Part shown: one piece after another, positions 4,715 through 43,319 of the stretch
How the letters are laid out: each line of letters opens with the position of its first letter
How positions within the stretch are numbered: position 1 is the stretch's first letter
Assembly (NCBI GenBank): GCA_947495685.1
Contig: CANLZY010000034.1
Span: forward strand, 1 to 55,458
Direction of reading: 5' to 3'
DNA length: 55,458 nucleotides
Source of the DNA: an uncultured Tropicimonas sp.
Lineage (GTDB): Bacteria > Pseudomonadota > Alphaproteobacteria > Rhodobacterales > Rhodobacteraceae
Position numbers and translations under genes: made by a program
Notes under the pieces: generated by a model
The model's input: only the letters and a program-made list of their open reading frames with translations
What the model was told of the DNA's origin: nothing
The model's database searches: none

Positions 4715-5473
4715 TCATTCCGGATCACCGCACAGCGCGTTGTCCAACGCGGAAATTGCATCGGGCTCAGCAAGATTTGCGGCCGATGCACCAAGGACCT
4801 GTTCCAGGGCCCGACGCGTTCTGGCACCGACAAATCCGTCCAGCGGCCCCGGGTTGGCCCCGGCCTCCAGCAACAACCGTTGCAGCGTCAACCCGTTCGG
4901 CCCATCTGGTAGTGTGGCAAGACCGCAGGCGGCCGTTTCGGTGGTACTTCCATCCGTCTCACCGGCCGTTGCGGATTTGTCCGCCCCCTGCCCCGCCACG
5001 GTCAGCGTGCCGTCGGTGCCTTCCGGCCCGGCAGCCTCGCCCGAGGTGACGCCGCCTTCTGCCAGCGCAGTGGCCTCAGCGTTCTCGGCCCTCCGACCAG
5101 CATACCCGGCATCCGACAGGCAGCGTCCCAGGTCATCGGCTATCTCCAGTGCCGGCACAGGGGGTGTGCCATCGATAGCTTTTCGACACGCCTTGCCCCC
5201 GCCATCGCAAACGACCGAAATTGTCCAGGCCGGGCGAGACGCCTCCGGTTGCAGCACGGCCTCTTCGTTCGACCAGATCCGGTAAAAGAAGCCGTCGATC
5301 CAACCTTCTTGCCAGATACCGGGGAACCGGGGCGACGGGACATCCGCATGACGTGTTTGGCTACCGGTGGCGCCGGGGAATGGACGGGAGAATGTTTCGG
5401 ACACGCAGGTCTCGGCAACGGCTGCGGTGGCGAACCCAAGCATCGCCACGAGCGAGCAGGCGACGAACCGCAT
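4715..5473 (-). CDS. Exported protein with C-terminal peptidoglycan-binding-like domain
   Basis: 252 residues, last gene of the nine-gene operon. A signal peptide ends near AAVAE. Residues ~50-125 form a small domain with two cysteines and the pattern GFFYRI..., WTISVVC, C...DGTPPVP, DDLGRCL. The domain resembles residues 70-160 of the outer-membrane-like protein at 17334-18938. A low-complexity acidic linker follows. The C-terminal ~70 residues (LQRLLLEAGANPGPLDGFVGARTRRALEQ) fit a PG_binding_1 repeat. The ATG lies in TGATG, overlapping the upstream stop by one base, which implies coupled translation; a GTG one codon earlier is the alternative. It probably acts in the periplasm as an accessory to polysaccharide assembly or export (inference). 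Confidence 0.75.
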   Translation of the reverse strand: MRFVACSLVAMLGFATAAVAETCVSETFSRPFPGATGSQTRHADVPSPRFPGIWQEGWIDGFFYRIWSNEEAVLQPEASRPAWTISVVCDGGGKACRKAIDGTPPVPALEIADDLGRCLSDAGYAGRRAENAEATALAEGGVTSGEAAGPEGTDGTLTVAGQGADKSATAGETDGSTTETAACGLATLPDGPNGLTLQRLLLEAGANPGPLDGFVGARTRRALEQVLGASAANLAEPDAISALDNALCGDPE

Positions 5474-6831
5474 CACCGGCTCGCCTGAAGCAGCGGGCCG
5501 TGGGCCCGGAACGCAATCGACGCCAGGACCACCGCGTTGGTATTCGTTGTCACGGAACCATTCGTCGTCCCATCCTGTTCATAGATCCCCTCGGGCCAGC
5601 CCCGCTCCGGGTCTCCCAGGGGAGCGACGGCTGCGACCAGTTCCTTGGTGTAGTCAGTCCCGAACAGCGCATCCCAGGCAAAGGCGGATTTCGTGCTGAG
5701 GGTGCGTTTGCTGTCCATTCGTTCGCCCTTGAACGTCATGACGGCCCAAGGCGCTCCGCCGCCCCAGATCGAGGAATAGATAAAGTAGGGTGCAACATCG
5801 AGGTGGGATTCGCTGACCGCAGTCAGAACACCGGTCTCGCGATATCGCGCTTCTTGCGCATTGTAGATCGCGGTGGCAAATCGGTGCGACCGCGCGTCAA
5901 ATCCAAACTCCAGCCCGTCGAACACGTAGGGTTCGCTGACCGTGAAGGCCGGGGTGGTGTTCCGGTGCAGACGGGTATCGACCGGGATCGGGTGGCCCTC
6001 GACGTCTTTTACCATCAACGTGTCCCCGACCCGATAGGCGTGATACATGTCAAAGCCAAACAGCATCATCGCCTTGGCGGCGTATTGTTCGTAGCCGACA
6101 CGGCCTTCCTGATCGTGGCGCAGCTTTCCATCGACAAGGTTGCCTCCGATCAGCAATCCGTCTTTGACCATCTCGGACAGGGCCCAACCATCCAGCACGT
6201 CATCGACCTCGGGGGAAAGTTCGGGAAAGGTCTGCTGAACGAGGCCGAGCGTGCCGACGATCCGCGCGATGTCAAGCGCCGACCAGCCAAGCCCACGCTC
6301 GACCGGCTTGTTGGAATAATCGACCAGTTCACCGGTCTGAACATTGTAGGCCTTGTTGGGCAGAAGGTCATCGAACAGCCGCATTTCGCCCAGCGTCTGC
6401 AGCGTCAGGGCAATCCGGGCCTGCGCCTCGGCCTCATCGATCAGGCCCAGCTTGTTGGCCGAGATCACGGCCACGAAATAGGAGCCGGTTTCCCACATTG
6501 TGGTGGAGGGATACTGGTCGGCGGAGTTCACAAGCCCCGTTTGCAGGTCCGTGTTGTTCTTGAAGTACCGCCAGGCGATTGCGGCGAATTCAAGGTCTTG
6601 CGGCGTGCTCTTGCTGGGCACAGTCAAGGGCAACGGGGCCACGTCTTCAAACACAGCCATGGCTGATTTCCCCTCCAGAGGCGCCATCTTCGGGCCCTGT
6701 TGCTCCGCCACGTCCGACGGTTCGTTGGCAACACGGTTCTCAATTGACGTGACCAACGCAAGACCACACCCCAGCGCAACGAGGAAGATGATGTGGCTTC
6801 GGGCCTTGACCAGGTTTTCACGAAAGCTCAT
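5473..6831 (-). CDS. DUF3131 domain protein, membrane-anchored periplasmic
   Basis: 452 residues. One N-terminal hydrophobic segment (IIFLVALGCGLALVTSI) anchors it; the rest should be periplasmic. Residues ~80-450 show the DUF3131 pattern: AIAWRYFKNNTDLQTGLVNS, YPSTTMWETGSYF, GWSALDIAR, GRVGYEQYAAKAMMLFGFD and FAWDALFGTDYT. The fold is predicted to be an alpha/alpha barrel like glucoamylases, so a glycan-processing role is plausible; no catalytic residues can be assigned with confidence. It is paralogous to the protein at 9809-11536 in the same operon. It overlaps its neighbours on both sides (ATGA with the glycosyltransferase, TGATG with the next gene). Confidence 0.85.
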   Translation of the reverse strand: MSFRENLVKARSHIIFLVALGCGLALVTSIENRVANEPSDVAEQQGPKMAPLEGKSAMAVFEDVAPLPLTVPSKSTPQDLEFAAIAWRYFKNNTDLQTGLVNSADQYPSTTMWETGSYFVAVISANKLGLIDEAEAQARIALTLQTLGEMRLFDDLLPNKAYNVQTGELVDYSNKPVERGLGWSALDIARIVGTLGLVQQTFPELSPEVDDVLDGWALSEMVKDGLLIGGNLVDGKLRHDQEGRVGYEQYAAKAMMLFGFDMYHAYRVGDTLMVKDVEGHPIPVDTRLHRNTTPAFTVSEPYVFDGLEFGFDARSHRFATAIYNAQEARYRETGVLTAVSESHLDVAPYFIYSSIWGGGAPWAVMTFKGERMDSKRTLSTKSAFAWDALFGTDYTKELVAAVAPLGDPERGWPEGIYEQDGTTNGSVTTNTNAVVLASIAFRAHGPLLQASR

Positions 6832-8657
6832 TTGGTGTCGGTTCCTTCATCGGCAGAGGGCGGCAGCCACAGCGCGGCCGAGATAATGCCTGCCATGGCA
6901 AGACAATTGTTCAATCCCCAGAGAAGATTGGCGACGACGCCGCTGGTCGAATGCGGGGTGCCGCCGACCCATAGCGCGCCCACGGCCCAGATCGAGGCCA
7001 GCACGGTCAGTGCCACAACCGCGATCTGGGGCCGAACGAGGCGGAGGAAGCTGCCCGATTGGCGCACCTTCGGCGTCACGGGAAAGGAGATTTTTTCGCC
7101 CTTGGCAACGGTCAGGATGGCGCGAAGCCCGAGAGGGAAGAAGGACAGGTAACTTGCCTTTGCATCATACCCCGAGATGCCCCAGGTCCCGACCATCATG
7201 GCCAGTTCGAGGGACACAAGGAACGGAACCAGATGCAGGAAAAACTCGTCGGAATAGGCGGATACCGGCGCGATCCCCGACAACAGGTAGATGACAGGTG
7301 CGAACAGGAAGATGATGTTCCAGAGCGGTGCAAGGTAAGAAAAGAAGGTCGTCCCGTACATCAGCTTCTGCGGGATCGACAAGCCCTTTCGAAACAACGG
7401 GTTGTCGTTCACCAGGATGTCGAGACTGCCGCCGGCATATTTGTAGCGTTGCACCGTCCAGGTCAGCAGATCCTGAGGTGACAGCATCTTGCTCTCGACG
7501 ATCGGGTGCATCTTCGACTTCCAGCCCCGTTCCCGGTCGGAGTGCAGGACGATCGAGGTGAAGATGTCCTCCGACACGTGGAACTTGTAGGGTGTGAGCG
7601 CTTCGGTGGTGGCGGCCTCGGTTCGGATGGCCTCCATGAGCTCCGGGGCAACGACACGCTCCTTGCTGGAGACGGTGATGATCTCTTCCTGATCAAAGGT
7701 GCGCTTTTCGACCTTCGCGCCAAAGCTTCGAAGGGCGGCTTCCATCACCGCCTCGCGACGGTGGATCGACCCCGCACCACAGCAGAACGAGGCGTTGACC
7801 CGGTTTCTGCGTCGCTGGATCACATCGTAGAACATCTTGGGATCGTTCACGAATGGGTCCTGGCCCAGCGTGACGGGGCCAAAGATCCGCTCGATGATCC
7901 GCCCGATCCGACCACCGAGCGCGCCAAACCGCCGTTCCAGCCTGACGGGCAGCCTTTCGCCTTCGGGCAGGTCATAGAACCACTGCGGCGTCTGTACCCA
8001 GGCCACCTTGGGGTCACGGAAATAGCCAAGCGTATGCTCCAGAAAGGTCGGGAACGGGCGTGTGTCCGCATCACAGATAAGGATGAAGTCGCCGTGGGTC
8101 TGCTCCATCGCGTGACGCAGGTTGCCGGCCTTGAACCCCTCGTTGGAACTGCGGGCGATGTAGTTGACGCCCTCCTGTTCCGCGACCGCACGCATCGCAT
8201 CACGCCGCCCGTCGTCAAGAACATGGAGTCTCACGTCGATCGGATGCGGATAGGTCATCTTCCGGGCATCCTGGATACCAATCCGGACAAGCTCGGGTTC
8301 TTCGTCATAGGTCGCGAACATCACGTCGACCGACAGCATGCGCGCCGCCTCGGGATGGCCGGTTGTGACATCCCGAAGGGTGTCCGGCGCAGGGGCGATG
8401 TTGATCGGGTCGTCCTTCCACAGATTGAAGACGAACAGGATCATTCCGACGTAGGCGCAGGTCTCGGCCGCCACCAGCGGAATGGCGAACCAGAGCGCAT
8501 CGGGATTGAGGGAATCCGTCCAGCGCCACCAGATGTACCAGGCCCCGATGACCAAGGCGATGGTGGCGAGAAACTGCCAGATGCCCTCCCGAGTGGCGGA
8601 ATATGGCAGCGGTCCCTCGGGGACACGATCCTCGAATTTCCGGAAGTAGTCGTCCAT
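6828..8657 (-). CDS. Family 2 processive glycosyltransferase (cellulose-synthase-like)
   Basis: 609 residues. Two N-terminal membrane helices (~27-45, 55-78) precede a cytoplasmic GT2 domain carrying the UDP-sugar aspartates: DDG at 148-150, DAD at 196-198 and the catalytic-base-like SED at 362-364. The acceptor motif QxxRW of processive synthases is present only in altered form, QRYKY at 403-407. At least four membrane helices follow (~430-600). No PilZ domain is seen, so direct c-di-GMP control as in BcsA is not indicated. It is probably the polymerase of the operon's polysaccharide. The polymer cannot be named; beta-glucans are made by the nearest families. A 3-base gap separates it from the acyltransferase gene, and its stop overlaps the next start. 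Confidence 0.88.
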   Translation of the reverse strand: MDDYFRKFEDRVPEGPLPYSATREGIWQFLATIALVIGAWYIWWRWTDSLNPDALWFAIPLVAAETCAYVGMILFVFNLWKDDPINIAPAPDTLRDVTTGHPEAARMLSVDVMFATYDEEPELVRIGIQDARKMTYPHPIDVRLHVLDDGRRDAMRAVAEQEGVNYIARSSNEGFKAGNLRHAMEQTHGDFILICDADTRPFPTFLEHTLGYFRDPKVAWVQTPQWFYDLPEGERLPVRLERRFGALGGRIGRIIERIFGPVTLGQDPFVNDPKMFYDVIQRRRNRVNASFCCGAGSIHRREAVMEAALRSFGAKVEKRTFDQEEIITVSSKERVVAPELMEAIRTEAATTEALTPYKFHVSEDIFTSIVLHSDRERGWKSKMHPIVESKMLSPQDLLTWTVQRYKYAGGSLDILVNDNPLFRKGLSIPQKLMYGTTFFSYLAPLWNIIFLFAPVIYLLSGIAPVSAYSDEFFLHLVPFLVSLELAMMVGTWGISGYDAKASYLSFFPLGLRAILTVAKGEKISFPVTPKVRQSGSFLRLVRPQIAVVALTVLASIWAVGALWVGGTPHSTSGVVANLLWGLNNCLAMAGIISAALWLPPSADEGTDTK

Positions 8658-8660
8658 CTC

Positions 8661-9812
8661 TCAGGTGCCCGCCGCTTTGTCGAGTTTGCGCATTTCCCAC
8701 GGGTTCGGCCCAAGCCCGATCGTCCATGCCAGAGGTTTGAGCCGTGACAACCCGACCGCAACCAGGAACGAGCCAGGCAAAGCGATCGCGAACCGAAGCA
8801 GCACGATCTGCCATGGCGCCAACGCGTCGGACAGTCCGGACGTGTACAGCGCGACGTCGAACAGGTCGATGACCAACGGATGCACCAGGTAGACGCCAAA
8901 GGTATAGCGGGCCAGTTTCGACCAGTTCGGCGACCAATCCAGATATTGTCCACCCATGAAGATGAAGAACATGAAGATCGGCATCAGGAAGTGGCCATAG
9001 AAGACCCATCCCTCGCGGGTGCCCCACGCGCCGGTCTGCACCGCCGTCGCGTAGAAGGGGATCGTGGCAACATAGGCCATGAGGGCAAAGTAGAGCGCCC
9101 CGCGGCGGATCAGCCGCGACTCCCCGCGCGGAACGCCATCTTTCCAGAGCCCGTACATCGCGAAGGCGGCAAGGCCGTACCCGACGTAGCCAAGGATCTT
9201 CAGAACGCGGAGGACGTAGTCCCGTAGCATCGGATCGAGGTCGAGCCCCCAGACGAAGCCTTGCGTGTTGTTCATGACGCCCAACGTGAAGAAGACCGTC
9301 AGACCCAGCACCGGATACCGCGTGGCGCCGCGCATCAGCGGATAGAACAGGAACAGCGCAAACAAGGTGGGCAGGAAGTGCATGTGGTACTGCACCTTGC
9401 CGAGCATGAAATAGCCGAGCCAGCTTTCGGGTTGGCGGATCTGGTCCCAGATGTAGGGCGCGTATCCGAAAGCATCGGCCTTGATCAGGCGGAAGAAGGC
9501 ATAGAACACCACCCAGAAGGCAAACGGCACCAACAGCCGCGTGGCCTGCTGCCCGATCGCAACGGAATAAGCCGGCAATTTCCGGTCAACCCGCATGGCC
9601 ATGAGGAACAGCGAGAAGAGGAAGAACATCTCCGACCCCGAAAACTCACCGATCGATCGCAGGACGACAGGAAAAACCCTGTCGTCGGCGGCCGCCTTGG
9701 CGAAAGGTTGGCCGGCAAAGTCTGTCGTCGAATGGATCAGCACGACGCCAAGCGCCGCGCAGACCCGGTTCGCATCGAACCAGACCAGCCTGGGTTTCTG
9801 TGCGCCGCTCAT
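8661..9812 (-). CDS. Membrane acyltransferase, OpgC / acyltransferase-3 type
   Basis: 383 residues with about ten hydrophobic helices. The N-terminal WFDANRVCAALGVVLIHST contains the conserved histidine region of the acyltransferase-3 family, and late segments such as TFGVYLVHPLVIDLF are typical of the same family. OpgC succinylates periplasmic glucans, so an acyl (perhaps succinyl) decoration of the polymer made by the adjacent glycosyltransferase is likely; the acyl group is inferred. The ATG at 9812 is chosen over longer upstream frames because it overlaps the previous stop as ATGA and starts the first helix. Confidence 0.85.
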   Translation of the reverse strand: MSGAQKPRLVWFDANRVCAALGVVLIHSTTDFAGQPFAKAAADDRVFPVVLRSIGEFSGSEMFFLFSLFLMAMRVDRKLPAYSVAIGQQATRLLVPFAFWVVFYAFFRLIKADAFGYAPYIWDQIRQPESWLGYFMLGKVQYHMHFLPTLFALFLFYPLMRGATRYPVLGLTVFFTLGVMNNTQGFVWGLDLDPMLRDYVLRVLKILGYVGYGLAAFAMYGLWKDGVPRGESRLIRRGALYFALMAYVATIPFYATAVQTGAWGTREGWVFYGHFLMPIFMFFIFMGGQYLDWSPNWSKLARYTFGVYLVHPLVIDLFDVALYTSGLSDALAPWQIVLLRFAIALPGSFLVAVGLSRLKPLAWTIGLGPNPWEMRKLDKAAGT

Positions 9813-11536
9813 TGGGCCGCCGCGGGAACCGGGCAGGACTTGGGCAGAACCTGCCGGACCTGGGGCGGCTCCAGGTTGTGTTCTTGCGGGCGGCAGTCCG
9901 TGGCGGCGATCTCGCCGCCGGTCAGAACCGGGCGGCAATAGAGGAACTCCTCGACCGGAATGACCGGGGCCAGCTGGGTCGGGTTCTCGCAGGCACAGCA
10001 GGGCACGACTTCGACCATCGGGTTGGGGTGACACTTCTGGGCGCGCAGGTCCGTTCCCGAATAGGCCACGTCCCAATGCTGTGTGTTCGTACTCACCTGC
10101 TGAAGGATCGGTCCCTGCACCTTGTAGAGAAGGGACGCGAGGATGATGCCGTTGTTGTTGGCGCTCTGAAGCGGAATGTAACCGTTCCCGTTTTCGTAGA
10201 GTCCTTCGTAGAACCCGAGACCTGGCTCATACAGGTCTGCGACAGATTCGAACAACAGGTCTGTGTAGTCGGTGTCCCACAGCGCCCACAGGCCCACGGC
10301 AGCCTTGGCCGCGATGGCGGAGCGGTCCGGCTGGTATTCGCCTGTCGGGTCGAGCGTGTTCCAGGCGTAGCCGTCCGCAAAGATCGAGTCATAGACGAAA
10401 TAGGGCTTGCCGTTGACCTGGTGCTCGGACCGGGCCGTGATGATCCCAGTCTGCTCGTACCGGCGCTGCTGAACCAGGTAGATCCGGTTCGCGAATTCTG
10501 CCCGCCATCCATGGCTTGCGGTTTGGCCGTCAAGTGTTCGATCCGACGGAAGATCCCAACCGAGTTCGAGTCCGTCCAGGATATAGCCCTCCGTCAGAAC
10601 ATAGTTCTGGTTCTTGAAAATCCTCGGATCGCGCCCGTCATAGGGAACCTTCACGTCAAAGATGGTCGTGTAGGCCAGCGGCTCCGGCGACAGCGCGCGC
10701 GACACGTCGAACCCCCATAGGGCAAAACCCTTTGCGGCGTATTCCTCGTAGCCGAGCCGGCCTTCCTGCACGTACCTGGTCTCTCCATCGCCCTGCTTGA
10801 ACGAGCCGAACATCCGACCATCTTCGTTGACCATGTTGCAGAAATTCCAGCGCATCGGGACATTGTCCACGCTGTTGGCAAGGTGGGGGTGACGTTCCTT
10901 GAGGATCTTGAGCCAGACCAGCATGCGTCCGATGTCGAGCGCAGACATGCCGACCTCTCCGGGTTCGTTGGCATAGTTCACCTTCGCGCCCGTCTCGGTG
11001 TTGTACACCTTGTTGGGGGCTTCACCGCGGTAGAGGTCCAGATTGCGCAACGTATTGAGAAGCTTTGTCGCCCGGGTGTCGAATTCGCGCTTGTCGATCA
11101 CGCACAACTCGTATGCAGCCACCAGGCCGCTCAGATAGGACGCCGTATCCCACAGCGTTGTCGACGGATAGGCGCCAACCGCATTCACCAGGCCCGTTTC
11201 CGGCTGGAACCGCTTTTCGAAATAGGACCAGGCGGTCTTGGCCATCTCGTATTCGCGCGGGGTCAACTGGCCGTTTCGGCCGAAATGCGCCTCCGAGGCT
11301 CTGTCGATGCTCCGTTGGCATTGCGGCACGGACACCGCCTGATCGGAGAACTCGACGAAAAGCGGGGTCTCCGAGCGGATCGTGACGCTGTTGTATTTGG
11401 CGCCATTGATCGTGATATCGTCAATGGTGACGGCAAGCGGTTCGACGCTTTCGTCCTGCGCCAGCGCAGGAAGGGCCAACGCAATGCACGCCACCGCGGG
11501 AGCCACCAAGGGCGAGACGGCCGTTCTGAATTTCAT
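9809..11536 (-). CDS. DUF3131 domain protein, secreted
   Basis: 575 residues. A signal peptide ends at ALPALA. The DUF3131 region (~95-500) contains YPSTTLWDTASYL, APNKVYNTETGAKVNY, GMSALDIGRML, GRLGYEEYAAKGFALWGFD and LWALWDTDYTDLLF. It is clearly paralogous to the shorter protein at 5473-6831 but has a ~95-residue N-terminal extension. A ~75-residue tail is rich in proline and cysteine (VVPCCACENPTQ). The role is unknown; processing or export of the polysaccharide in the periplasm fits the context. The gene follows the RsbW-like gene by 22 bases. Confidence 0.85.
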   Translation of the reverse strand: MKFRTAVSPLVAPAVACIALALPALAQDESVEPLAVTIDDITINGAKYNSVTIRSETPLFVEFSDQAVSVPQCQRSIDRASEAHFGRNGQLTPREYEMAKTAWSYFEKRFQPETGLVNAVGAYPSTTLWDTASYLSGLVAAYELCVIDKREFDTRATKLLNTLRNLDLYRGEAPNKVYNTETGAKVNYANEPGEVGMSALDIGRMLVWLKILKERHPHLANSVDNVPMRWNFCNMVNEDGRMFGSFKQGDGETRYVQEGRLGYEEYAAKGFALWGFDVSRALSPEPLAYTTIFDVKVPYDGRDPRIFKNQNYVLTEGYILDGLELGWDLPSDRTLDGQTASHGWRAEFANRIYLVQQRRYEQTGIITARSEHQVNGKPYFVYDSIFADGYAWNTLDPTGEYQPDRSAIAAKAAVGLWALWDTDYTDLLFESVADLYEPGLGFYEGLYENGNGYIPLQSANNNGIILASLLYKVQGPILQQVSTNTQHWDVAYSGTDLRAQKCHPNPMVEVVPCCACENPTQLAPVIPVEEFLYCRPVLTGGEIAATDCRPQEHNLEPPQVRQVLPKSCPVPAAAQ

Positions 11537-11558
11537 TGTTGCTGTCCAATCATGATGT

Positions 11559-11999
11559 TCAATTCACCGGTTCGGAAGCGCTGCCTTCTTCGCGCCTGTC
11601 AAAACCAAGAGAGAGCCTGTTTCGGCCGTTAGATGTGCCGTAGTCCACACTGTCGGCGCATTCCATTATGAGCGAGAGCCCCCTGCCCCGCTCTGCCATC
11701 AGGTCAACCTGGGCAAGTTCACGTGCATGGAGCCGCAAATCGAACGGCGCGGCCCCGGCCGGATCAAAGATCTCCAGGCGGACGGTGTCGTCGTCGATGG
11801 TCAACCCCACATCGATGGGCACCGACGCATCCGCGCCCTTGGCGTGTATCACCAGGTTGTACAGGGCTTCGCTCAGACAGATCTGCACGCGTGCCGGCAA
11901 GTCACCCGAAAGGGCGCCCTCCAATTTCGACATTACCGTCAAGACCGTCGGATCGACGCCTTCAAGGCAATTGGGCATATGAAAGGTTTCCTGGATCAC
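11559..11999 (-). CDS. RsbW-like anti-sigma / serine kinase ATPase
   Basis: 146-residue HATPase_c_2 protein. The N-box reads LSEALYNLVIHA (E44, N48), the G1 region IFDPAG and the G2 region ERGRGLSLI, so ATP binding looks intact. In partner switching such proteins phosphorylate a STAS antagonist and sequester a sigma factor or another target. The STAS partner is the overlapping upstream gene and the phosphatase the one before it. No sigma factor is encoded in the window, so the output partner is unknown. The start is taken as GTG at 11999, which overlaps the STAS stop (GTGA); an ATG 21 bases downstream is possible. Confidence 0.85.
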   Translation of the reverse strand: MIQETFHMPNCLEGVDPTVLTVMSKLEGALSGDLPARVQICLSEALYNLVIHAKGADASVPIDVGLTIDDDTVRLEIFDPAGAAPFDLRLHARELAQVDLMAERGRGLSLIMECADSVDYGTSNGRNRLSLGFDRREEGSASEPVN

Positions 12000-12340
12000 A
12001 GGCGCTCGTTCATCGACTGCACGGCCGCGTCGGAATCCCGGTATATCGTGAAGACGCGATCCATGCGGCAGATGCGGAACATCTGCTCGACATCATTGTT
12101 CAGGCCGCACACAGCCATTTCGCCCCGGTTTCCGATTTTCTTCAGAACACCGACAAGCGCGCCCAAACCCGAGGAATCGAGGAACGAGACATCCTTGAAA
12201 TCGACGACGAGCAGGCTGGTGCCCTGATCGATCAGCGCAACGACTTCATCCCTGAATGTCTTGGCGTTCATGGCCGTCAGACGTGCGTCGCCGGGCCTGA
12301 CAACCGTGATTTCAGAGTTGTGTACGGCGGTGCGTATCAT
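11996..12340 (-). CDS. STAS-domain anti-anti-sigma factor (RsbV/SpoIIAA-like)
   Basis: 114 residues, a single STAS domain. The phospho-acceptor loop FLDSSGLGAL is intact, with the conserved serine at 56 or 57. When unphosphorylated it should bind the RsbW-like ATPase encoded downstream; the PP2C phosphatase encoded upstream should dephosphorylate it. The ATG at 12340 is preferred because AAAGGA lies 9 bases upstream. The gene overlaps the 3' end of the phosphatase gene by 29 bases. Confidence 0.88.
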   Translation of the reverse strand: MIRTAVHNSEITVVRPGDARLTAMNAKTFRDEVVALIDQGTSLLVVDFKDVSFLDSSGLGALVGVLKKIGNRGEMAVCGLNNDVEQMFRICRMDRVFTIYRDSDAAVQSMNERL

Positions 12341-13520
12341 TTGGTCGTGTCCTTTCCAAAGCCACAATGGTCAGATCATCCTCGAGCGCCCGGCCATCCC
12401 GCCAGTCAGTCAACGCTCGAACAAGTGTATCGGGCAATTCGTCGATCCCCAGATCGGGCATCTTTGAAACGATGCCATTCATTCGGTCGATGCCGAACGG
12501 AACCCCGCGCATGTTCTCGGCCTCCGGCACCGCATCGGAACAGATGACCAGCGAATGCCCGCATTCGAAGTCCAGCGAATTGTTTTCGTACTCCGCCTCT
12601 GGGAACATTCCGACCGGAAAGCCGCCATCCCCGACGGTCTCGACCTTTCCGCAAGGGCGCACGTAGTGCGGAGACGGATATGCGGCCTGACAATACTCCA
12701 ACCGTCCGGTCTCGCTGTCGATCACGCCGCAGAACATCGTGAAATAATCGTCGTTGTCCCTGCCACTGAAGCGGTGGTTCAGATCGGACACAAGGGCGGC
12801 CGGGTCTGGAAGGTCCGGGGTTTCCAACACCTTGGTCTTGAAGAATTCCGGTGTGATCAGATGTCCGATGGCGACAGACAGAAGGGATGCGTGCACGCCA
12901 TGCCCCGACACATCGACAGCGTAGAACCCAAGTTTGTTGTCGCTCAGCGGAAAGCACCCGAACATGTCACCGGACACGAACGAAGACGGCACGAACATTG
13001 CGGAAATGCGAAATCCGAGGATTTCCTTGTGGATGTCCGGCAACAACTGCCGCTGTGCATTGGCTGCGGATCGCAGGTCCTGTTCCAGTCGTTCATGGGT
13101 CTCGCGGAGGATGCGATTGCTTTCAGCCAGTGCCTCGGCATGTTGCACCAGCCGGGTCGCGGATCGAATTCTCGCCTTCAGCAACACCGGGCTTTGACCT
13201 TTGGTCAGGAAGTCGTCCACACCCGCTTCGAGCGCTTCTGCGCGCAGATCGTCCTCGTCGCGGCCGGTAATCATGATGATATGCACGTAGTGATCGAGGT
13301 TCAGTTCCCGGACCTTCTTCGTGAGTTCGATGCCGTTCAACTTCGGCATATGAAAGTCGCTCAGCACGATCTGGGCATCCGTCTCGCGCACAAGATCCAA
13401 CGCTTCCTGACCGTCTTCCGCGACAACGACCTGATATCCCAGGCTCTCGACCATGCGCGAAAGGATCACCCGCTGCAGGCGATTGTCTTCGGCCACGATA
13501 ACCTTGAGCCGGCACCTCAT
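12312..13520 (-). CDS. Response regulator with PP2C (SpoIIE/RsbU-type) phosphatase output
   Basis: 402 residues, first gene of the operon. The receiver domain (1-~120) has the acidic pair E11-D12, phospho-acceptor D55 (VLSDFHMP) and the GVDDFLTKG lysine. A coiled-coil linker (~125-165) leads to the SpoIIE phosphatase domain with metal aspartates in SGDMFG, AVDVSGHGVHASL, CSDAVPEAEN and DDLTIVALE. Its role would be to dephosphorylate the STAS protein when its receiver is phosphorylated. The kinase is not encoded in the operon; the divergent hybrid kinase with an HPt domain is the obvious candidate donor (inference). Confidence 0.9.
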   Translation of the reverse strand: MRCRLKVIVAEDNRLQRVILSRMVESLGYQVVVAEDGQEALDLVRETDAQIVLSDFHMPKLNGIELTKKVRELNLDHYVHIIMITGRDEDDLRAEALEAGVDDFLTKGQSPVLLKARIRSATRLVQHAEALAESNRILRETHERLEQDLRSAANAQRQLLPDIHKEILGFRISAMFVPSSFVSGDMFGCFPLSDNKLGFYAVDVSGHGVHASLLSVAIGHLITPEFFKTKVLETPDLPDPAALVSDLNHRFSGRDNDDYFTMFCGVIDSETGRLEYCQAAYPSPHYVRPCGKVETVGDGGFPVGMFPEAEYENNSLDFECGHSLVICSDAVPEAENMRGVPFGIDRMNGIVSKMPDLGIDELPDTLVRALTDWRDGRALEDDLTIVALERTRPNDTHRRTQL

Positions 13521-13699
13521 AACACTTCCACTTTGCGGTTGGACGACACAGTCGTCGAGTACACAATCAGAGTCAGAAGGGGCTTCGTGGCCATCCTATG
13601 ACCAATTTGAGCCAATACTCGAGTGCTATACACGTCTGGCTCCCTCCTGCGTTGGAAGGGTGTTTGCTGGTATTTCCTCGTGTCTTCAACACACCTTTC

Positions 13700-13748
13700 G
13701 TATAGTCCGGTGCTCAACGGTATAGTCCTTTGTCCAGACGTATCGTCT
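13700..13748. repeat. 20-bp-phased direct repeats GTATAGTCC / GTATAGTCC / GTATCGTCT
   Basis: Nine-base units start at 13700, 13720 and 13740, exactly 20 bases apart (about two helical turns), so all three face the same side of the DNA. This is typical of cooperative binding by a response regulator. They lie ~180-230 bases upstream of the phosphatase start and ~400 upstream of the H-NOX start. Confidence 0.7.
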
Positions 13749-14029
13749 TGTGCCGCGACAACCTGCAAAGGAGAGGATCGCGGCATTGCCGGCCAATTGG
13801 CAAGGCCAATGGCTCGACAAGAGGAACGATCCGAGACGACGCAATGAGACCTCCTATCTTCCGATTTCATGATCAGGTTTGCGCTTGAGACGAACCGGGA
13901 GAAGGTCTCTCTGGCGGAACGGTCGATGGAGCAGGACCTGCCGAGTGAATGCCCCCTCCATGCCATGTCCGACCCCGTCGGATGACCGGCAGGCCGACCT
14001 GCCTGGTTCGGAGCCGCCCGCTGCAAACC

Positions 14030-14045
14030 CTATACTTTGGTATAG
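14030..14045 (+). promoter_or_regulatory. Inverted repeat CTATACTTTGGTATAG upstream of the H-NOX gene
   Basis: Six-base arms CTATAC / GTATAG flank TTTG, 95 bases before the H-NOX start. The right arm continues as GTATAGTCGG, matching the phased repeats at 13700-13748. It could be an operator for the locus-encoded LuxR-type regulator, or overlap the promoter itself. Confidence 0.6.
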
Positions 14046-14140
14046 TCGGCCATACGGAAGCGCACGAAGGACCGATTGTAAAACCCTGCCGGATGAGGGA
14101 CTCTCGCGCGCAACAGGACAGAAGCCAAAGGGATATCCGC

Positions 14141-14686
14141 ATGAAGGGCGTTGTGTTTGTCGAGCTGCTCTCGATGGCCGAAAAGGCCTTCGGTGAGGAC
14201 GTGGTTGACCAGGTCATCGAAAAGGCGGATCTCGCCAACGGCGGCGGGTATACCGCTGTGGGCAACTACCCCTGCGAGGAACTCGTCAAGATCGTGGACG
14301 CCTTCAGCGCCCATTCCGGCCTGAGTCCGGAACTGCTGCAGCGCAAGTTCGGCCATTGGATGATGGACTTTTTCGGCAAGCACTATCCGGAGTTCTTTAC
14401 CGGCAAGTCGACCTCCTTCGAAATGCTCGAAGCGGTTGACCAGGAGATCCATGTCGAGGTTTTGAAGCTCTACCCGGAAGCCGAACTCCCCCGTTTCGAA
14501 ACCGAGCGCACCGGAGAACGCCAACTTGAAATGGTGTACACTTCGCCGCGACCGCTCGTCTCCTTTTGTCAGGGTCTGATCGAAGCCTGTGTCGAGAACT
14601 TTGGCGAGACGGCGGAAATTGCGTTCGAGGCAACGCCGGACCAGAGCAACAGCACAACCTTCACGATCGACGTCACCGATACCTAG
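14141..14686 (+). CDS. H-NOX (haem-nitric oxide/oxygen binding) sensor protein
   Basis: 181 residues, a stand-alone HNOB domain. It begins with the canonical MKG. The proximal haem histidine is H104 (IHVEVLKLYP), followed by the conserved P117 and the haem-propionate motif Y133-x-S135-x-R137 (YTSPR). No obvious distal tyrosine is seen, which in this family favours NO over O2 binding (inference). The next gene is a cytoplasmic kinase, the usual H-NOX partner. The ATG at 14141 is preferred to longer frames because it gives the exact family N-terminus. Confidence 0.95.
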   Translation: MKGVVFVELLSMAEKAFGEDVVDQVIEKADLANGGGYTAVGNYPCEELVKIVDAFSAHSGLSPELLQRKFGHWMMDFFGKHYPEFFTGKSTSFEMLEAVDQEIHVEVLKLYPEAELPRFETERTGERQLEMVYTSPRPLVSFCQGLIEACVENFGETAEIAFEATPDQSNSTTFTIDVTDT

Positions 14687-14697
14687 GAGATCACCTG

Positions 14698-16425
14698 TTG
14701 TCATCCGTACAAGATGATCGCGTATCGCGCAGCCGATACGAGCGTGAAACGACCGCGCGCAAGGAAGCCGAGCAGTTGCTGGAGCAGAAGAGCCGCGAGC
14801 TTTTTCTTGCCAACCAGAAACTCAGCCAGCAGTCCGAGATGCTCGAACAGACCGTCAAGCAACGGACGGCAGAACTGCGTCTGGCCCTGGAAAAAGCCGA
14901 GGCCGCCTCGGCGATGCGGGCCCGCTTCATCGCAACCATGAGCCACGAGATCCGCACACCGCTCGGCGGCCTGCTGGGCATGATCGACCTGATCCTTGGC
15001 GACGAGACCGACCCGGCCAAGCGCGAATTGCTGGAGTATGCGAGCACCTCGGGCGAGGCACTCAAGCGGATCGTGAACGACGTTCTGGATTTCTCCAAGA
15101 TGGAGGCCGGGGCGTTCCAGTTCGAGAACGAGAAGGTCGATATTCGCGCCCTCATCGGCGGCGTTCTGGCGCTGACCGGTGCCAGTATTCCAGATGGCGA
15201 TGCCCGGCTGCGCAGTTCCATCTCGCCGACGGTGCCACAGTTCTTCGCCGGCGATGCCACGCGCATCCGCCAGGTTCTGGCCAACCTGATCTCCAATGCC
15301 GGCCGCTATTCTTCCGGAGGGACGATCGAGGTTCGTGCCTTTGCGTCCCCGCACAAGAAAGGCGCGTTGATCCGGGTCGAGGTCGAGGACCACGGGGTCG
15401 GGATTTCGACCGAACAACAAAAGGACCTGTTCAAGGATTTCACCCAGGTGCAGAACAAGCTAACGGCTGCGGCGCAGGGAACCGGTCTCGGCCTCGCCAT
15501 CAGCCGGCGGATCATCGAAGGCGCCGGCGGCCATATCGATGTCCACAGCGAGCCGGGCGTTGGCTCGGTCTTCTGGTTCGAATTGCCGGTCGAGGTGGTA
15601 GAAGCCCGCTCGTCCCTGCAAAAATCTGGGTCCATCGGCGCTCCCGCCGCGAAAGCCGAGGTTGATGGGGCACGGATTCTTCTGGCCGAGGACAACAAGA
15701 TAAACCAGAAGCTGCTCCTGACCTTTCTCAAGCGAATGAACGTGACGGCGGACCTGGCCGAGAACGGCCGGATCGCGGTCGAGAAGTTCGCGCCGGGCAA
15801 ATACGACCTCGTCCTGATGGACGTGGCGATGCCGGAAATGGACGGGCTCGAAGCGACGCGGATCATCCGCGACAGCTGGCCGGCGGAAAAGATCCCGCCC
15901 ATCGTGGTGCTGACGGCGCATGTGCTCGACGCGATCCATGAAGACAGTGCCCGGGTTGGTATCGACCGGGTCCTGAGCAAGCCGATCACCTTCGGCGACC
16001 TGCGCGATGCGATCTCCGAGGAGCTTGGCGCGAAACACGCCCCCGACCAGGACGCGCCCATGCAGTTCGGCGCCCGTCCGGCGGTCTTCGTGCACTTGTC
16101 CGAACCGATACTGCAGGGATTGATCGAGTCCATGAGCGAGAACGAGGTGATCGCTCTTGTCGAGGAATTCGTGATCGACTCGCGCCGTTTGCTGGAGGCG
16201 ATCACCTCGAATCTCAGGCGAGGAGAGGCCGAGGCGGCCGCAGCCGAGGCGCATGCCCTCAAGGGGATGTCCGGGCTGATCGGGGTTCAGGGCGTGTCCG
16301 AACTTGCCGGACAGCTGGAACAAAGCGCGCCCTATCTGGACGAGGCGTCGATCGACGAGGTCGCAGGCTCCATCGCGCAACATCTCGACACGCTCGACCG
16401 CGCGCTGAACAACACTCCGGATTGA
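14698..16425 (+). CDS. Hybrid histidine kinase with receiver and HPt domains (H-NOX-associated)
   Basis: 575 residues. An N-terminal coiled coil (~15-70) is followed by HisKA (MSHEIRTP, H83), HATPase_c (N-box NLISNAG, DHGVGIS, GTGLGLAIS), a receiver domain (phospho-acceptor D375 in LVLMDVAMPEMDG) and a C-terminal HPt domain (AHALKGMSG, H519). There are no membrane helices and no sensor domain, consistent with control by the soluble H-NOX protein encoded 11 bases upstream. The start is taken as TTG at 14698, with AGGAGA 8 bases upstream; no ATG fits the N-terminal helix. The HPt can pass phosphate to the LuxR-type regulator and possibly to the receiver-phosphatase across the divergent region. 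Confidence 0.9.
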   Translation: MSSVQDDRVSRSRYERETTARKEAEQLLEQKSRELFLANQKLSQQSEMLEQTVKQRTAELRLALEKAEAASAMRARFIATMSHEIRTPLGGLLGMIDLILGDETDPAKRELLEYASTSGEALKRIVNDVLDFSKMEAGAFQFENEKVDIRALIGGVLALTGASIPDGDARLRSSISPTVPQFFAGDATRIRQVLANLISNAGRYSSGGTIEVRAFASPHKKGALIRVEVEDHGVGISTEQQKDLFKDFTQVQNKLTAAAQGTGLGLAISRRIIEGAGGHIDVHSEPGVGSVFWFELPVEVVEARSSLQKSGSIGAPAAKAEVDGARILLAEDNKINQKLLLTFLKRMNVTADLAENGRIAVEKFAPGKYDLVLMDVAMPEMDGLEATRIIRDSWPAEKIPPIVVLTAHVLDAIHEDSARVGIDRVLSKPITFGDLRDAISEELGAKHAPDQDAPMQFGARPAVFVHLSEPILQGLIESMSENEVIALVEEFVIDSRRLLEAITSNLRRGEAEAAAAEAHALKGMSGLIGVQGVSELAGQLEQSAPYLDEASIDEVAGSIAQHLDTLDRALNNTPD

Positions 16426-16599
16426 TCTTCGATGGTATGGAGACTGTGACTCCCCTGCCGACGCCGAAGGCATCTTGTTGGCGCCAAGGTCCCTAGCATG
16501 TTTGACGTCGATGGTCCGAGATCGGATTGGTGGGTTTCGCGCGGTTTCCATCGACCGGCATAGTCGTTAGAACCGGGTGAAGGTGGCAGAGGTTGAGAG

Positions 16600-17220
16600 A
16601 TGATCCGGGTTTTGATTGCTGACGACCACGTGCTCGTGCGTGAAACGCTGGGCGCCTTCGTCGAGAATGCTGGTGGTTTCGACCTGACACTCGTGGAAGA
16701 CCTCGACGCAGCCTGTGTCAGCATGGAGGCTACGACCGGCTATGACCTCGTGCTGCTGGACTACCAGATGCCGGGCATGAATGGGCTCGAGGGGCTGACG
16801 CGCGCGATGCAAGCCAACCGCGGCAAGCCGGTGGCGCTGATGTCCGGCGTGGCAAGCCGAAAGATCGCGCAGGACGCGATGGAAGCCGGTGCGATCGGTT
16901 TCCTGCCCAAGACAATGCCGGCAAGTTCACTGGTGAACGCGATCCGCTTCATGGCGATGGGGGAGCAGTTCATTCCTGTCGCCTTCATGAACGAGCCCGA
17001 AGAGCCGGAGACCGACCACCCCCTCGCCGACAAGTTGTCTCCCCGCGAAATCGAGGTGCTTGGCGGATTGTGCCGGGGGCTCGCCAACAAGGAAATCGCG
17101 CGCGAGTTGGGCCTGCAGGAGGTGACGATCAAGATGAACGTCATGACGCTCTGCCGCAAGCTCGAAGCAAAGAACCGCACTCATGCCGCGATGATCGCCA
17201 AGGAGACCGGTTTCTTCTGA
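16600..17220 (+). CDS. LuxR/NarL-type response regulator
   Basis: 206 residues. The receiver domain has D9-D10, phospho-acceptor D54 (LVLLDYQMPGMNG) and K104. The C-terminal LuxR helix-turn-helix (~143-206) reads LSPREIEVLGGLCRGLANKEIA...VTIKMNVMTLCRKL. It is the likely final receiver of the H-NOX phosphorelay. A GGCATAGTCG word at 16558, resembling the phased repeats at 13700-13748, lies just upstream and may mark autoregulation. A 174-base gap separates it from the kinase gene, so it may have its own promoter. Confidence 0.92.
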   Translation: MIRVLIADDHVLVRETLGAFVENAGGFDLTLVEDLDAACVSMEATTGYDLVLLDYQMPGMNGLEGLTRAMQANRGKPVALMSGVASRKIAQDAMEAGAIGFLPKTMPASSLVNAIRFMAMGEQFIPVAFMNEPEEPETDHPLADKLSPREIEVLGGLCRGLANKEIARELGLQEVTIKMNVMTLCRKLEAKNRTHAAMIAKETGFF

Positions 17221-17333
17221 TACCGCGCCAGAATGGTTGCTGTGACCTTGCACGTTGGCGCCGTCGCGCAGATCGGCTGGAGGCGAAACAGGTTCTGATT
17301 GGTGCCGCGTGGCAGCCGCCTCGCCAATCCGGC

Positions 17334-18938
17334 TCAGAACTTGAACCGGTAGGTAACGGAAAAGCTCCCGCCAAGAAGACCCGGACCGGACGCCTCGTTC
17401 TGGTTCCAGGGCCACCGATTGTTGCTGTAGTTGCTGTAAGACACGGTGAACTGGTCCGAGATCCTGTAGCTGGCCGTATAGCTGTAGTCGGGCTCGTACG
17501 TGCCCTGCTCGCCGGGGAAATACGCATAGGCTGTTCCACTGACCCTGAGTTTCTTGGTGATGCTCGCGCCGCATGACAGGCTGACACTGGATTCCACCAG
17601 CTTCGGCAGACCGATGCCGGTGGAACAGGCGACGGTCTTGCCATTTGGAAGCTCGAATTTCGGCAGCTTGAAACTCCCACGCAATTTTCCCGAAGCCAGC
17701 GCATCGAAAAAACCGCCATCCGGGCCGTCGAAACGGGCAAGGTAGTTGGAGTAGGTCAGGTTGATCCTCTCCGAAACCTTGTACGTGAGGGCATAGGTGA
17801 AATCCGGGTCCCAGGGCTGCTGATCCTCCGGGTTGAGGTATTCCTGAAGGAAGAACCGCAAGGTGAGCTTTTCGGTGATATTTCCGCTGCACCCAAGCCC
17901 CACGCGCGGTTTGCCCGGCCCCGTGTCTTGCGTGTCCGAGTCGGTATGCCGAAGGCTGAAGGAGCCGGTTACCGAACACCTGAGATTTGTCCGCTCCACG
18001 AATGTTTCCCTGTCATCGTCGGTCGATGGCTCTTCCGCCCCATCCTCCACGGCGGGAGCATTCGGATTTGTGGAGGGCTTGGTCGTGACGGGTTTGGGAG
18101 TTGTGCGGCGCGGGGCGGTGTTTGCGAACGACGTGGCGCAGCCGGACGGCATGAAAGCTGCAAGTTCCGAGCAGACATCTTCCTGCGGATCCGCCGCCCC
18201 GGCCCGGTCGCTCGGGCGGCTGTTGGCGTTCCCCGGAACCGATCCGGACCCGCCGTTGACCTGCTCCAGGGGGTCTGCGGCTGCATCGCGTGCTCCGGGA
18301 TCGGCGGAGGCCGGTGCCGATGTCACCTCGCCCCCATCGGAGGGCGCGCGCGTTCCGACCGGTAATCCGGTGTCCGAGTCCGCCGAGGTCAGCGTGTCCG
18401 ATTGCTTCTTGTCGTTCGTCGGCCCGTCCACCACGGCGGGAGCGGATGGTTGTGCCCCCGTGCCGGAAAGGATCCACTCGGCCAGGTAGCGCGACAAGGT
18501 TTCGCCGTCGGAAATGGCCGCGCTGTCCGGACGCCCGCTCCCGGTGGCTGGAACAGCAAACGACGTCCCATCGGCACGCCGTACCAGGCAGGACACGCCT
18601 GACGTGCACGCCAGGGTGTAAGCCGCTTCCCTCTGACCACTGTCTTCCATGATCGTGGCAGACCCGTCCGGAAACACGACATAGTACCAGCCATTGGACA
18701 CCCCGCGCTGGAAGCGCGACCAGAACATGACGTTCTGGACATCGCCAACAACCTCTTCGGCGCCCGGCAGGACAGGGTCCGCCGTGTTGACGAATTCCGG
18801 ACCGGGCACGAACGGCTGAATGGTGGCAGGAGACACGCCGGGAGACCCGATCTGCTCCGCCCGAGCCACAGGGACATGCGGGGCCTCTGTCACGAAGACC
18901 ACAGCCATCAACATGAACCAGAATGAACGCAAAAACAT
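17334..18938 (-). CDS. Outer-membrane beta-barrel-like protein with N-terminal exported domain
   Basis: 534 residues. A signal peptide ends near VARAEQ. Residues ~65-160 resemble the N-terminal domain of the protein at 4715-5473 (WYYVVFPDGSATI, YTLACTSGVSC, DGTSFAVPA, ETLSRYLAEWI). A long Ser/Pro/Asp/Thr-rich linker (~165-310) follows. The C-terminal ~220 residues show alternating strands such as YALTYKVSERINLTYSNYL and YTASYRISDQFTVSYSNYS, ending in YRFKF with a terminal phenylalanine as in BAM-inserted barrels. It may form the outer-membrane part of the polysaccharide system (inference). The ATG at 18938 is chosen; a TTG two codons upstream is possible. Convergent with the LuxR-type gene. 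Confidence 0.7.
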   Translation of the reverse strand: MFLRSFWFMLMAVVFVTEAPHVPVARAEQIGSPGVSPATIQPFVPGPEFVNTADPVLPGAEEVVGDVQNVMFWSRFQRGVSNGWYYVVFPDGSATIMEDSGQREAAYTLACTSGVSCLVRRADGTSFAVPATGSGRPDSAAISDGETLSRYLAEWILSGTGAQPSAPAVVDGPTNDKKQSDTLTSADSDTGLPVGTRAPSDGGEVTSAPASADPGARDAAADPLEQVNGGSGSVPGNANSRPSDRAGAADPQEDVCSELAAFMPSGCATSFANTAPRRTTPKPVTTKPSTNPNAPAVEDGAEEPSTDDDRETFVERTNLRCSVTGSFSLRHTDSDTQDTGPGKPRVGLGCSGNITEKLTLRFFLQEYLNPEDQQPWDPDFTYALTYKVSERINLTYSNYLARFDGPDGGFFDALASGKLRGSFKLPKFELPNGKTVACSTGIGLPKLVESSVSLSCGASITKKLRVSGTAYAYFPGEQGTYEPDYSYTASYRISDQFTVSYSNYSNNRWPWNQNEASGPGLLGGSFSVTYRFKF

Positions 18939-19342
18939 GTCCAAACTCTAATAGGTATCGGCAATCACCGCCTGCTGACCGGGGCGGGTGGTAGCCAGTC
19001 GGGAGAAAGTTTAACCAAGACGGCCTCCGCCAACGACTCTCGTTCTCGATTTGAATGCAACCTGATGCGGTCATGCCGCGTTCGCTGTACCGACCGTGCT
19101 TTTTTCGGTGGAAGACGGGCCATCAATCCGCGTTTCGTCGGCACTTTCGGCGGGTTCCTGTGCAGGGACAGGTGGCAGGGTCATCTTTGGACTCCAACGT
19201 GACAGCAGGAACGAAGGATCAGTTCCCCCACGAGCCGAACGAGCGCGAGTTGGTCGCCATGCAATGATGCCTTGTGGCCGCGCCGAGGGCACAATCCCCT
19301 GTCGCCCGATGCCTCCCAAGCCTCTGCAACCGCTCCCCTGCC
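18939..19342. other. Intergenic; at most one very small frame
   Basis: A 37-codon minus-strand frame (19184 to 19071, starting MTLPPVPAQE) has GGAG seven bases upstream, but no recognisable feature supports it. Nothing else was seen. Confidence 0.4.
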
Positions 19343-41475: not shown

Positions 41476-41485
41476 CCCGCCGGCT

Positions 41486-41501
41486 CTGCGGAAATCCGCA
41501 G
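41486..41501 (+). promoter_or_regulatory. Dyad CTGCGGAAATCCGCAG between dctD and dctP
   Basis: Perfect 7-bp arms CTGCGGA / TCCGCAG around AA, 11 bases after the dctD stop and ~100 bases before dctP. It may be the binding site of the DctD-like regulator or a weak terminator. I found no convincing -24/-12 sigma-54 promoter (TGGCAC-N5-TTGC) before dctP, in keeping with the altered regulator. Confidence 0.5.
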
Positions 41502-41601
41502 GGACGGCAAGATTGAGCGTGCAGTTTCCTTCATAGTCCGGGCCGTCGGCTTCCTGAATACTCGCAGGATCAAGATCCGCTTGCTTCTGGGAGGAACCAA
41601 C

Positions 41602-42612: not shown

Positions 42613-42686
42613 GCCGTCTGCCCTGCGCCGCGTCTTCCTGAAGGCGCAGGGCTCCCCCTTCATCAAAGTCCTTGCGGAGAGTCGTC

Positions 42687-43319
42687 ATGGCAGGATCATC
42701 CCTCGTGCTGACCGATGACAGCCTTCTCAGTCAGATCGACCAGCGCCTCTACAGGCTGGAAGGGTATCTGGCACTTCTGAGCGGCCTTGCGGTCTTTTCT
42801 CTCATGTTGCTTGCGGTCTTTTCCGTCGGAGGGCGCAATCTGGCGAACCTGCCACTGCCCGGTTATGTCGACTGGATCGAGCAGGTTATGCCACTGATTG
42901 CCTTCATGGGCATTTCCTTCACGCAACGCGATGGCGGACACATCCGCATGGACATGCTGGTGGGCGCCCTTCGTGGACGGCCTCTCTTTCTGGCCGAACT
43001 TGTGACCACCCTGGTCATTCTTGTCCTGATGCTTCTCCTGGTTTGGGGAAGCTGGGCGCATTTCGAGCGGAGTTTCGATTTCAGCGCGCCTCTGTGGAGT
43101 TCTGACAGCTCGATGGATATCTCCCTGCCGCTCTGGCCCGCAAAACTGTTGGTGCCTGTCGCGTTCAGCGTGCTGTGCCTGCGCCTTGCCCTTCAGGTCT
43201 GGGCCTATGGCCGGGCCCTTGTCACCGGGGACGCCAAGCTCGTCGCGGTGCCGCTGATCGCCGACGCTGCCACACAGGCTGCGATGGAAGCCGAGCATGT
43301 CTCGGGCCAGGACAATTGA
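42687..43319 (+). CDS. dctQ: TRAP transporter small permease (DctQ family)
   Basis: 210 residues, four membrane helices. Family hallmarks are the GGRNLANLPLPGYVDWIEQVMPLIAFMGISFTQRDGGHIRMDML region. It partners the large permease encoded 11 bases downstream. Confidence 0.9.
   Translation: MAGSSLVLTDDSLLSQIDQRLYRLEGYLALLSGLAVFSLMLLAVFSVGGRNLANLPLPGYVDWIEQVMPLIAFMGISFTQRDGGHIRMDMLVGALRGRPLFLAELVTTLVILVLMLLLVWGSWAHFERSFDFSAPLWSSDSSMDISLPLWPAKLLVPVAFSVLCLRLALQVWAYGRALVTGDAKLVAVPLIADAATQAAMEAEHVSGQDN

Follow-up and report, generated by a model that had tools for sequence, protein, structure and literature searches.

What connects a gene for the nitric oxide (NO) sensor protein H-NOX, a partner-switching module and a polysaccharide synthase in a single bacterial locus, and which of the switch proteins acts on polymer synthesis? 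These genes lie in a 55,458-nucleotide stretch of DNA from an uncultured Tropicimonas sp. (contig CANLZY010000034.1; the whole stretch is hereafter called the window), part of a 5.6-Mb genome. The closest named relatives of its glycosyltransferase family 2 (GT2) synthase are Rhodobacterales. An initial annotation had proposed that H-NOX controls the locus through a kinase and a phosphotransfer relay leading to the switch, and from there to an unknown output. The observation is confirmed and its interpretation is partly supported. In the analysis described here, the switch and the synthase form a conserved locus, H-NOX is one among several interchangeable inputs to it, and the STAS protein of the switch emerges as the probable output.

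The minus-strand operon (4715-13520) comprises eight genes and is divergent from the genes for H-NOX, a kinase and a regulator on the plus strand (14141-17220). One end of it encodes a receiver-PP2C phosphatase of the SpoIIE type (12312-13520; Response_reg 89.3 bits, SpoIIE 117 bits), a STAS protein with a DSSG motif (11996-12340; 67.1 bits) and an RsbW-type serine kinase/ATPase (11559-11999; HATPase_c_2 55.5 bits) whose start codon is uncertain. DUF3131 protein A (9809-11536; 398.2 bits), the BcsA-like GT2 synthase (6828-8657; Glycos_transf_2) and DUF3131 protein B (5473-6831; 408.6 bits) are encoded beyond these. The plus-strand genes specify H-NOX (14141-14686; HNOB 134 bits), a hybrid kinase with the domain order HisKA-HATPase-REC-HPt (14698-16425; TTG start inferred) and a REC-GerE response regulator of the LuxR type (16600-17220), the cluster of which is represented in 15 of the 89 loci described below. 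All of these families had been named in the initial annotation, and each scores above its Pfam cut-off.

To compare the window with its relatives we assembled 89 loci, consisting of 80 genome-contig loci (the best 80 of 93 relatives), eight plasmid loci and the window itself. The plasmid loci come from a GT2 search of 499 plasmid records. The top 17 of the 40 matches listed cluster together (55.8-75.7% identity, coverage of 98% or more), and the eight were taken from these; after them identity falls to 33%. A window-like GT2 (E <= 1e-100) is present in 14 of 198 family genomes, and the GT2 was found in 15 of 398 phylum genomes, a set that overlaps the family set in part. Switch genes were counted by a six-frame profile search, since the open reading frame (ORF) caller overlooks RsbW and STAS genes. 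By the strict form of this count, PP2C, STAS and RsbW all accompany GT2 in 75 of the 89 loci (76 by a looser count), and DUF3131 is present in 88, so that the co-occurrence check suggested with the initial annotation came out in its favour. The co-occurrence spans alpha-, beta- and gammaproteobacteria, class names being taken from record titles; the titles of L073 (Mycobacterium) and L114 (a Maribacter metagenome-assembled genome) point outside the Proteobacteria, and these records are perhaps mislabelled. The 14 loci outside the strict count are three from Paracoccus with STAS alone, two from Serratia, L110 and eight others (L051, L089, L098, L100, L103, L104, L113 and L114), most of which end at contig ends. 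L110 was left out because no RsbW frame shorter than 330 amino acids was found there, though the ORF caller lists one. PP2C-profile matches in L098, L111, L112 and L113 were rejected as phosphatases; they are kinase frames.

The window switch carries the sequence hallmarks of a partner-switching module, namely the STAS Ser motif, the RsbW N-box and the PP2C Asp residues. Each of the five conserved PP2C Asp residues is retained in 72 of 72 sequences and the receiver Asp in 64 of 72; the N-box Glu and Asn of RsbW are found in 76 and 77 of 77, respectively, and the DS motif in all 73 members of the window STAS cluster. Because these residues are nearly invariant, the switch appears to be kept in working order.

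The distribution of relay components indicates where signals reach this switch. Among 51 loci whose available stretch includes both a receiver-PP2C and a kinase, 49 also have an HPt domain, fused or separate, and a separate HPt gene is present in the H-NOX loci L078, L079, L083 and L095, whose kinase has no HPt of its own. A kinase or HPt occurs in 55 of 66 loci with a receiver-bearing PP2C versus none of ten with a receiver-less PP2C (p 4e-7 by Fisher's test without a correction for relatedness, so that the independence of these related loci is overstated). The 4.4-kb contig L088 is a doubtful member of the ten and was receiver-bearing in another count, and the receiver of L092 is partial in Pfam. 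Receiver-less phosphatases instead carry input domains themselves: CHASE3 in L082, HAMP in L038 and L147 (the latter outside the 89 loci) and GAF-PAS in L102. Pfam found no known input domain on those of L105 and L108, and those of L084, L085, L107 and L116 lay outside the Pfam scan. In three Granulosicoccaceae loci (L105, at 13225-14740, L107 and L108), H-NOX lies 4 bp from a receiver-less PP2C gene or overlaps it, with no kinase seen nearby, making this a possible direct H-NOX-phosphatase pair. Relay parts thus track the PP2C receiver, and other inputs sit on receiver-less PP2Cs, a distribution that identifies the phosphatase as the site of signal entry.

H-NOX is found near GT2 in 24 of the 89 loci, at distances of about 2.3 to 6.0 kb, upstream or downstream and on either strand. 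This recurrence in several arrangements excludes a chance grouping and shows the conserved synteny whose absence would have spoken against the initial annotation. Marine relatives that share the window's layout include Celeribacter halophilus, Pacificibacter marinus and Octadecabacter algicola. The haem-ligand His is present in 24 of 24 members of the cluster and the Arg of YxSxR in 21 of 24; the window protein has both motifs. H-NOX adjoins a kinase in 21 of the 24 loci and a bare PP2C in the other three. In the window it directly precedes the kinase gene, 11 bp away given the inferred TTG start. Because this kinase has no Pfam sensor domain over cut-off ahead of the phosphoacceptor, the adjacent H-NOX is presumably its natural sensor.

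Other inputs take the same place elsewhere. A molybdopterin-domain protein is found in 16 of the 89 loci and a globin-like protein in four (so named by NCBI; Pfam gives no match, and the top hit in the PDB is 1tu9, at E 3e-4), and other kinases occur in further loci. Mapped onto the GT2 tree, the input labels require 24 changes versus a mean of 50.5 after shuffling, which indicates that inputs are clustered yet have changed repeatedly. The route that the initial annotation proposed, from H-NOX through a relay to the switch, is partly supported, and H-NOX would be one of several interchangeable inputs to it. Both kinds of module can stand together, as in Sulfitobacter L117, where an H-NOX-kinase module and a molybdopterin-protein-kinase-LuxR module flank a single operon. 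In the enterobacterial loci L035, L036, L111 and L112, the input is a globin-like protein with a kinase. A tree of H-NOX proteins separates the alphaproteobacterial, gammaproteobacterial and Granulosicoccaceae copies with modest support and with long branches meeting. A single origin of the linkage was set aside on this basis, and the modest support does not fix the number of gains. Rows L005, L008 and L011 of this tree are marked as unlinked, but G127 and G097 are linked, and G155 consists of two short contigs. The window genome has a second H-NOX (L130, G000 contig C22) in which Pro replaces the haem His; other genes separate it from a REC-REC-GGDEF gene about 3 kb away.

Loci with a reduced switch suggest which of its proteins acts on the pathway. 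In five of the six loci of the non-alphaproteobacterial family f38 (the sixth is a 3.2-kb contig), STAS occurs without RsbW or PP2C in the stretch, directly before GT2 or one gene off. A search for an RsbW-sized match across the whole genome found none in G249 (99% complete), G358 (93%) or G445 (67%), and PP2C-type matches occur elsewhere in the genome in all six f38 genomes. STAS is also alone in the three Paracoccus loci. Moreover, eight loci from the window's own family (L136-L142 and L156) encode STAS fused to the N terminus of a nucleotidyltransferase-hexapeptide protein, and the GT2s of these loci are more distant, at 43-49% identity. The fusion adjoins GT2 in four of the eight. Its STAS domain exceeds the Pfam cut-off in six, and in L137, L138 and L140 its nucleotidyltransferase part looks degenerate, with no such domain over cut-off. 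The DS motif is found in none of the eight fusions versus all 82 remaining STAS loci measured, the motifs of L136, L138, L139 and L141 having been read by eye. In a 108-row GT2 tree a single branch separates the fusions from all other rows, and three changes are needed to account for the STAS-only label. A check for sigma factors in 150 in-locus ORFs, covering the 25 most frequent of 131 Pfam families, found none of the region-2 sigma-70 type. Sigma70_r4_2 was matched in three of these ORFs, the best E value of 2.7e-4 being the score of the LuxR-type regulator of L063. Because STAS remains or is fused in the synthase locus when the switch is lost, we take it as most likely that STAS works on synthesis rather than through a sigma factor. 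The output that had been called unknown is thereby narrowed to STAS, and this assignment stays conditional.

The enzyme that would be controlled resembles BcsA in its GT2 family and core motifs, and its best sequence matches in the PDB are BcsA proteins. It scores 233.9 against the cellulose synthase model TIGR03030 (cut-off 699.1) and has no PilZ match, and its identification as BcsA cellulose synthase was rejected on these grounds. A further difference is the motif QR[FY]KY, which is found in 89 of 89 loci; BcsA has QxxRW at this position. By these sequence features, the GT2 of the locus is a subfamily separate from BcsA. In agreement with the initial annotation, Pfam matched no GGDEF, EAL or PilZ domain in the window genes scanned, and a cyclic di-GMP (c-di-GMP) route was dropped for the window. 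On a Sphingobium RAC03 plasmid (L037), a PilZ gene (11431-11799) lies just ahead of GT2, and c-di-GMP control is possible there.

Between its FCCGA and SED motifs the window GT2 has an extra segment that is absent from the BcsA match (about 54 versus eight residues when measured between aligned blocks), and a predicted structure (mean pLDDT 84.5, pTM 0.81) models it as two helices (301-331 and 338-351). The spacing of these motifs is at least 62 residues in 87 of 89 loci and 62 in the STAS-only family f38, and our motif-distance script gave values of 24 and 41 for two of the 89 rows. In the seven fusion-type GT2s measured it is 44-61 residues, with no value returned for L140. Because the segment is long in nearly all loci with a separate STAS and shorter in the fusion-type GT2s measured, we speculate that the modelled helices might be a contact site for STAS.

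Several features of the locus and its relatives suggest that the product is likely a glucose polymer. A DUF3131 profile matches a structure annotated as 'Glycosyltransferase 36' (8wy1) weakly (E 8.5e-6 over 87 positions), followed by type IV pilin (E 0.0061) and cyclic beta-1,2-glucan synthases (E 0.085), which are weak as well; window DUF3131 protein A as a single query gave no match in the same structure-sequence search. Among the relatives, GalU, which bears on UDP-glucose as the precursor, exceeds its cut-off in L110, and glucose-6-phosphate isomerase is encoded in L113. Glycosidases of families GH9, GH2 and GH3 (L073) also occur, as does GH16 in nine of the 150 in-locus ORFs.

We propose the following chain of events. 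Without NO, the kinase would autophosphorylate, and phosphate would pass by His-Asp-His transfer to the PP2C receiver and also to the LuxR-type regulator, which would set transcription. Active PP2C would dephosphorylate STAS, and unphosphorylated STAS, as the output, would promote synthesis at the synthase or at a precursor step. RsbW would phosphorylate STAS and thereby disable it. Formation of haem-NO on H-NOX would inhibit the kinase, as is assumed from relatives, and so shut production off. In sum, a local partner switch would gate a PilZ-free, BcsA-like and probably glucan-making synthase, a reading to which we give about an even chance. What we infer here are all of the phosphotransfers, the sign of the NO effect, the role of STAS as effector and the glucose polymer. 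The STAS step finds support in the Vibrio fischeri protein SypA, the active form of which is described as unphosphorylated in a passage of PMC4517449. We put forward more tentatively a sharper version, in which STAS controls the PilZ-free synthase branch post-translationally, at the synthase and its extra helices or at the nucleotide-sugar supplier, with no involvement of a sigma factor or c-di-GMP, with an interchangeable sensor, and with the Granulosicoccaceae H-NOX acting directly on PP2C without a kinase.

Some observations weigh against the proposed chain. A receiver-PP2C and a kinase occur with no HPt seen in L076 and L115, and 11 of the 66 receiver-PP2C loci have neither kinase nor HPt, some of these stretches being cut. 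An RsbW-like gene is located elsewhere in three f38 genomes (G277, G300 and G362) and in all three Paracoccus genomes with STAS alone, where the kinase could act in trans. The fusions of L138, L140, L142 and L156 sit 0.6-6.7 kb from GT2, and the window has no nucleotidyltransferase of this kind. Serratia L111 and L112 have GT2 and the globin-kinase pair with no switch within about 10 kb. Lastly, the sigma check spans the 25 commonest families and could overlook a true sigma factor or two.

This last point bears on a classical anti-sigma mechanism, in which RsbW would hold a sigma factor encoded elsewhere until STAS frees it, with the polysaccharide operon as one target promoter. RsbW and STAS retain the Bacillus-type switch residues expected of such a system, and a sigma factor has been suggested as the target of the related proteins RbaVWY, none being identified in the portion of that report consulted (PMC3999984). 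However, no sigma-70 region 2 recurs among the families checked, STAS stays in the locus in G249 and G358 where the genome holds no RsbW-sized match, and the STAS-nucleotidyltransferase fusions exist; we consider this mechanism unlikely, if credible. The same reduced loci speak against direct binding and inhibition of the synthase by RsbW, with STAS merely titrating RsbW. The position of RsbW directly before GT2 in many non-alphaproteobacterial loci would suit that arrangement, but STAS-only and fusion loci keep STAS and not RsbW, and the sole RsbW-only locus (L089) ends at a contig end, and we judge it decidedly unlikely.

The input side could also be misread if H-NOX and the kinase were mere neighbours that target the LuxR regulator or something else, while the switch has a different input. 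Such independence would be consistent with a similar H-NOX-kinase pair away from any such GT2 in family genome G123 (L146), with the far wider occurrence of H-NOX (138 of 198 family genomes versus 14 of 198 for GT2) and with L076, which has H-NOX and a kinase without HPt. It accords poorly with the linkage of H-NOX, variously arranged, in 24 of the 89 loci, with the three loci in which H-NOX abuts a receiver-less PP2C and no kinase is seen (L107 being outside the Pfam scan), and with the separate HPt genes of L078, L079, L083 and L095. We regard it as quite improbable. Gating of the synthase by the local switch, with STAS as its output, is the reading that we prefer.

The remaining genes of the window locus required several revisions of the initial annotation. 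Nine overlapping minus-strand genes had been listed; we count eight, omitting a 169-amino-acid ORF (13517-14026) with no Pfam match. PP2C and STAS genes overlap by 29 bp, and the STAS/RsbW, DUF3131/acyltransferase, GT2/DUF3131 and DUF3131/PG-binding-like junctions by 4 bp each, whereas other junctions have gaps of 22 and 3 bp. The membrane acyltransferase (8661-9812, minus strand; start ATG at 9812), formerly 'OpgC-like', has no OpgC_C domain and matches only Acyl_transf_3 (78.4 bits); an OpgC_C domain is found instead in the relative L116. The name PG-binding-like is unproven for the last product of the operon, a 253-amino-acid protein that looks secreted by eye (4715-5476, minus strand), as PG_binding_1 gives 14.8 bits, under the cut-off of 23. 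Its cluster is present in 31 of 89 loci. Beyond the regulator gene, a 536-amino-acid protein (17334-18944, minus strand) has a signal peptide by eye, repeats and a C-terminal Phe, appears by eye to be an outer-membrane barrel, and has no Pfam match. Because its cluster recurs in 24 of 89 loci, this gene belongs to the locus.

The gap between the PP2C and H-NOX genes contains three exact copies of GTATAGTC, against an expectation of 0.13 for the window, together with one variant, GTATCGTC. Three of these four copies are direct repeats phased at 20 bp (13700-13747, plus strand) that form a candidate operator, and the fourth, an exact copy, is at 14040-14047. The tandem pair occurs once in the genome, and the repeats are a possible binding site for the LuxR-type regulator. 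The relatives checked showed no such repeats, and a conserved operator was rejected. Elsewhere in the window, genes for a Cache-domain kinase and a sigma-54 response regulator precede one for the TRAP transporter protein DctM (38411-44731), and a 645-amino-acid open frame (45353-47290) has no Pfam match at E 1e-5.

Is this wiring new? The initial annotation knew of no described system of this kind, yet by analogy there is a precedent in V. fischeri. According to the parts of PMC12369376 and PMC4517449 consulted, the H-NOX protein HnoX restrains the hybrid kinase HahK there, an HPt (SypF-LuxU) feeds both the regulator SypG and the receiver protein SypE, and SypE controls the STAS protein SypA through serine phosphorylation, with syp polysaccharide as the output. 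The same passages place hnoX-hahK in an operon of its own and describe SypE as both kinase and phosphatase. The window differs in having a single locus, separate RsbW, STAS and REC-PP2C proteins, a BcsA-like GT2, DUF3131 proteins and an exchangeable sensor, and the likeness is one of wiring and not demonstrably of descent. In the part of PMC4517449 consulted, the route by which SypA promotes biofilms dependent on polysaccharide is described as unknown. The locus family described here offers natural experiments on such a route: a lone STAS, a STAS that is fused and has lost its phosphosite motif, and sensors swapped upstream of one phosphatase. It could also provide an example of a cellulose-synthase-like enzyme gated independently of c-di-GMP and, possibly, of H-NOX paired directly with a phosphatase.

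Other known systems share some of these components. The RbaV-RbaW-RbaY proteins of Rhodobacter capsulatus, which have been reported in further Rhodobacterales, comprise a STAS protein, an RsbW and a receiver-PP2C. As described in the sections of PMC3999984 consulted, they influence viability in stationary phase as well as the gene transfer agent, and rbaY lies apart. The window genome has a second set with an Rba-like layout (L143 and L144), 27-38% identical to the window proteins. In Paracoccus denitrificans, an H-NOX protein paired with a diguanylate cyclase controls attached growth; as excerpted from PMC5588039, it has no axial His, a trait shared with the second H-NOX of the window genome, and its coding sequence overlaps that of a GGDEF protein. 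The window H-NOX, by contrast, retains the His and is followed by a kinase gene. Among the open-access PMC papers listed, no title or abstract opening describes this locus, and the one exception is a passage on Klebsiella pneumoniae 'block 3b' (PMC12974863), which lists among accessory genes, with no function assigned, a cellulose synthase, three DUF3131 proteins, OpgC, a hybrid kinase and an anti-sigma factor with its antagonist; the likeness is by description. The Tropicimonas locus thus unites familiar components, wired in a way that has partial precedent, in one conserved locus with interchangeable sensors, and it gives an unexpected clue to the output. By analogy, its nearest counterpart in protein types appears to be RbaVWY, and its nearest working parallel would be HnoX-HahK/Syp of V. 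fischeri.

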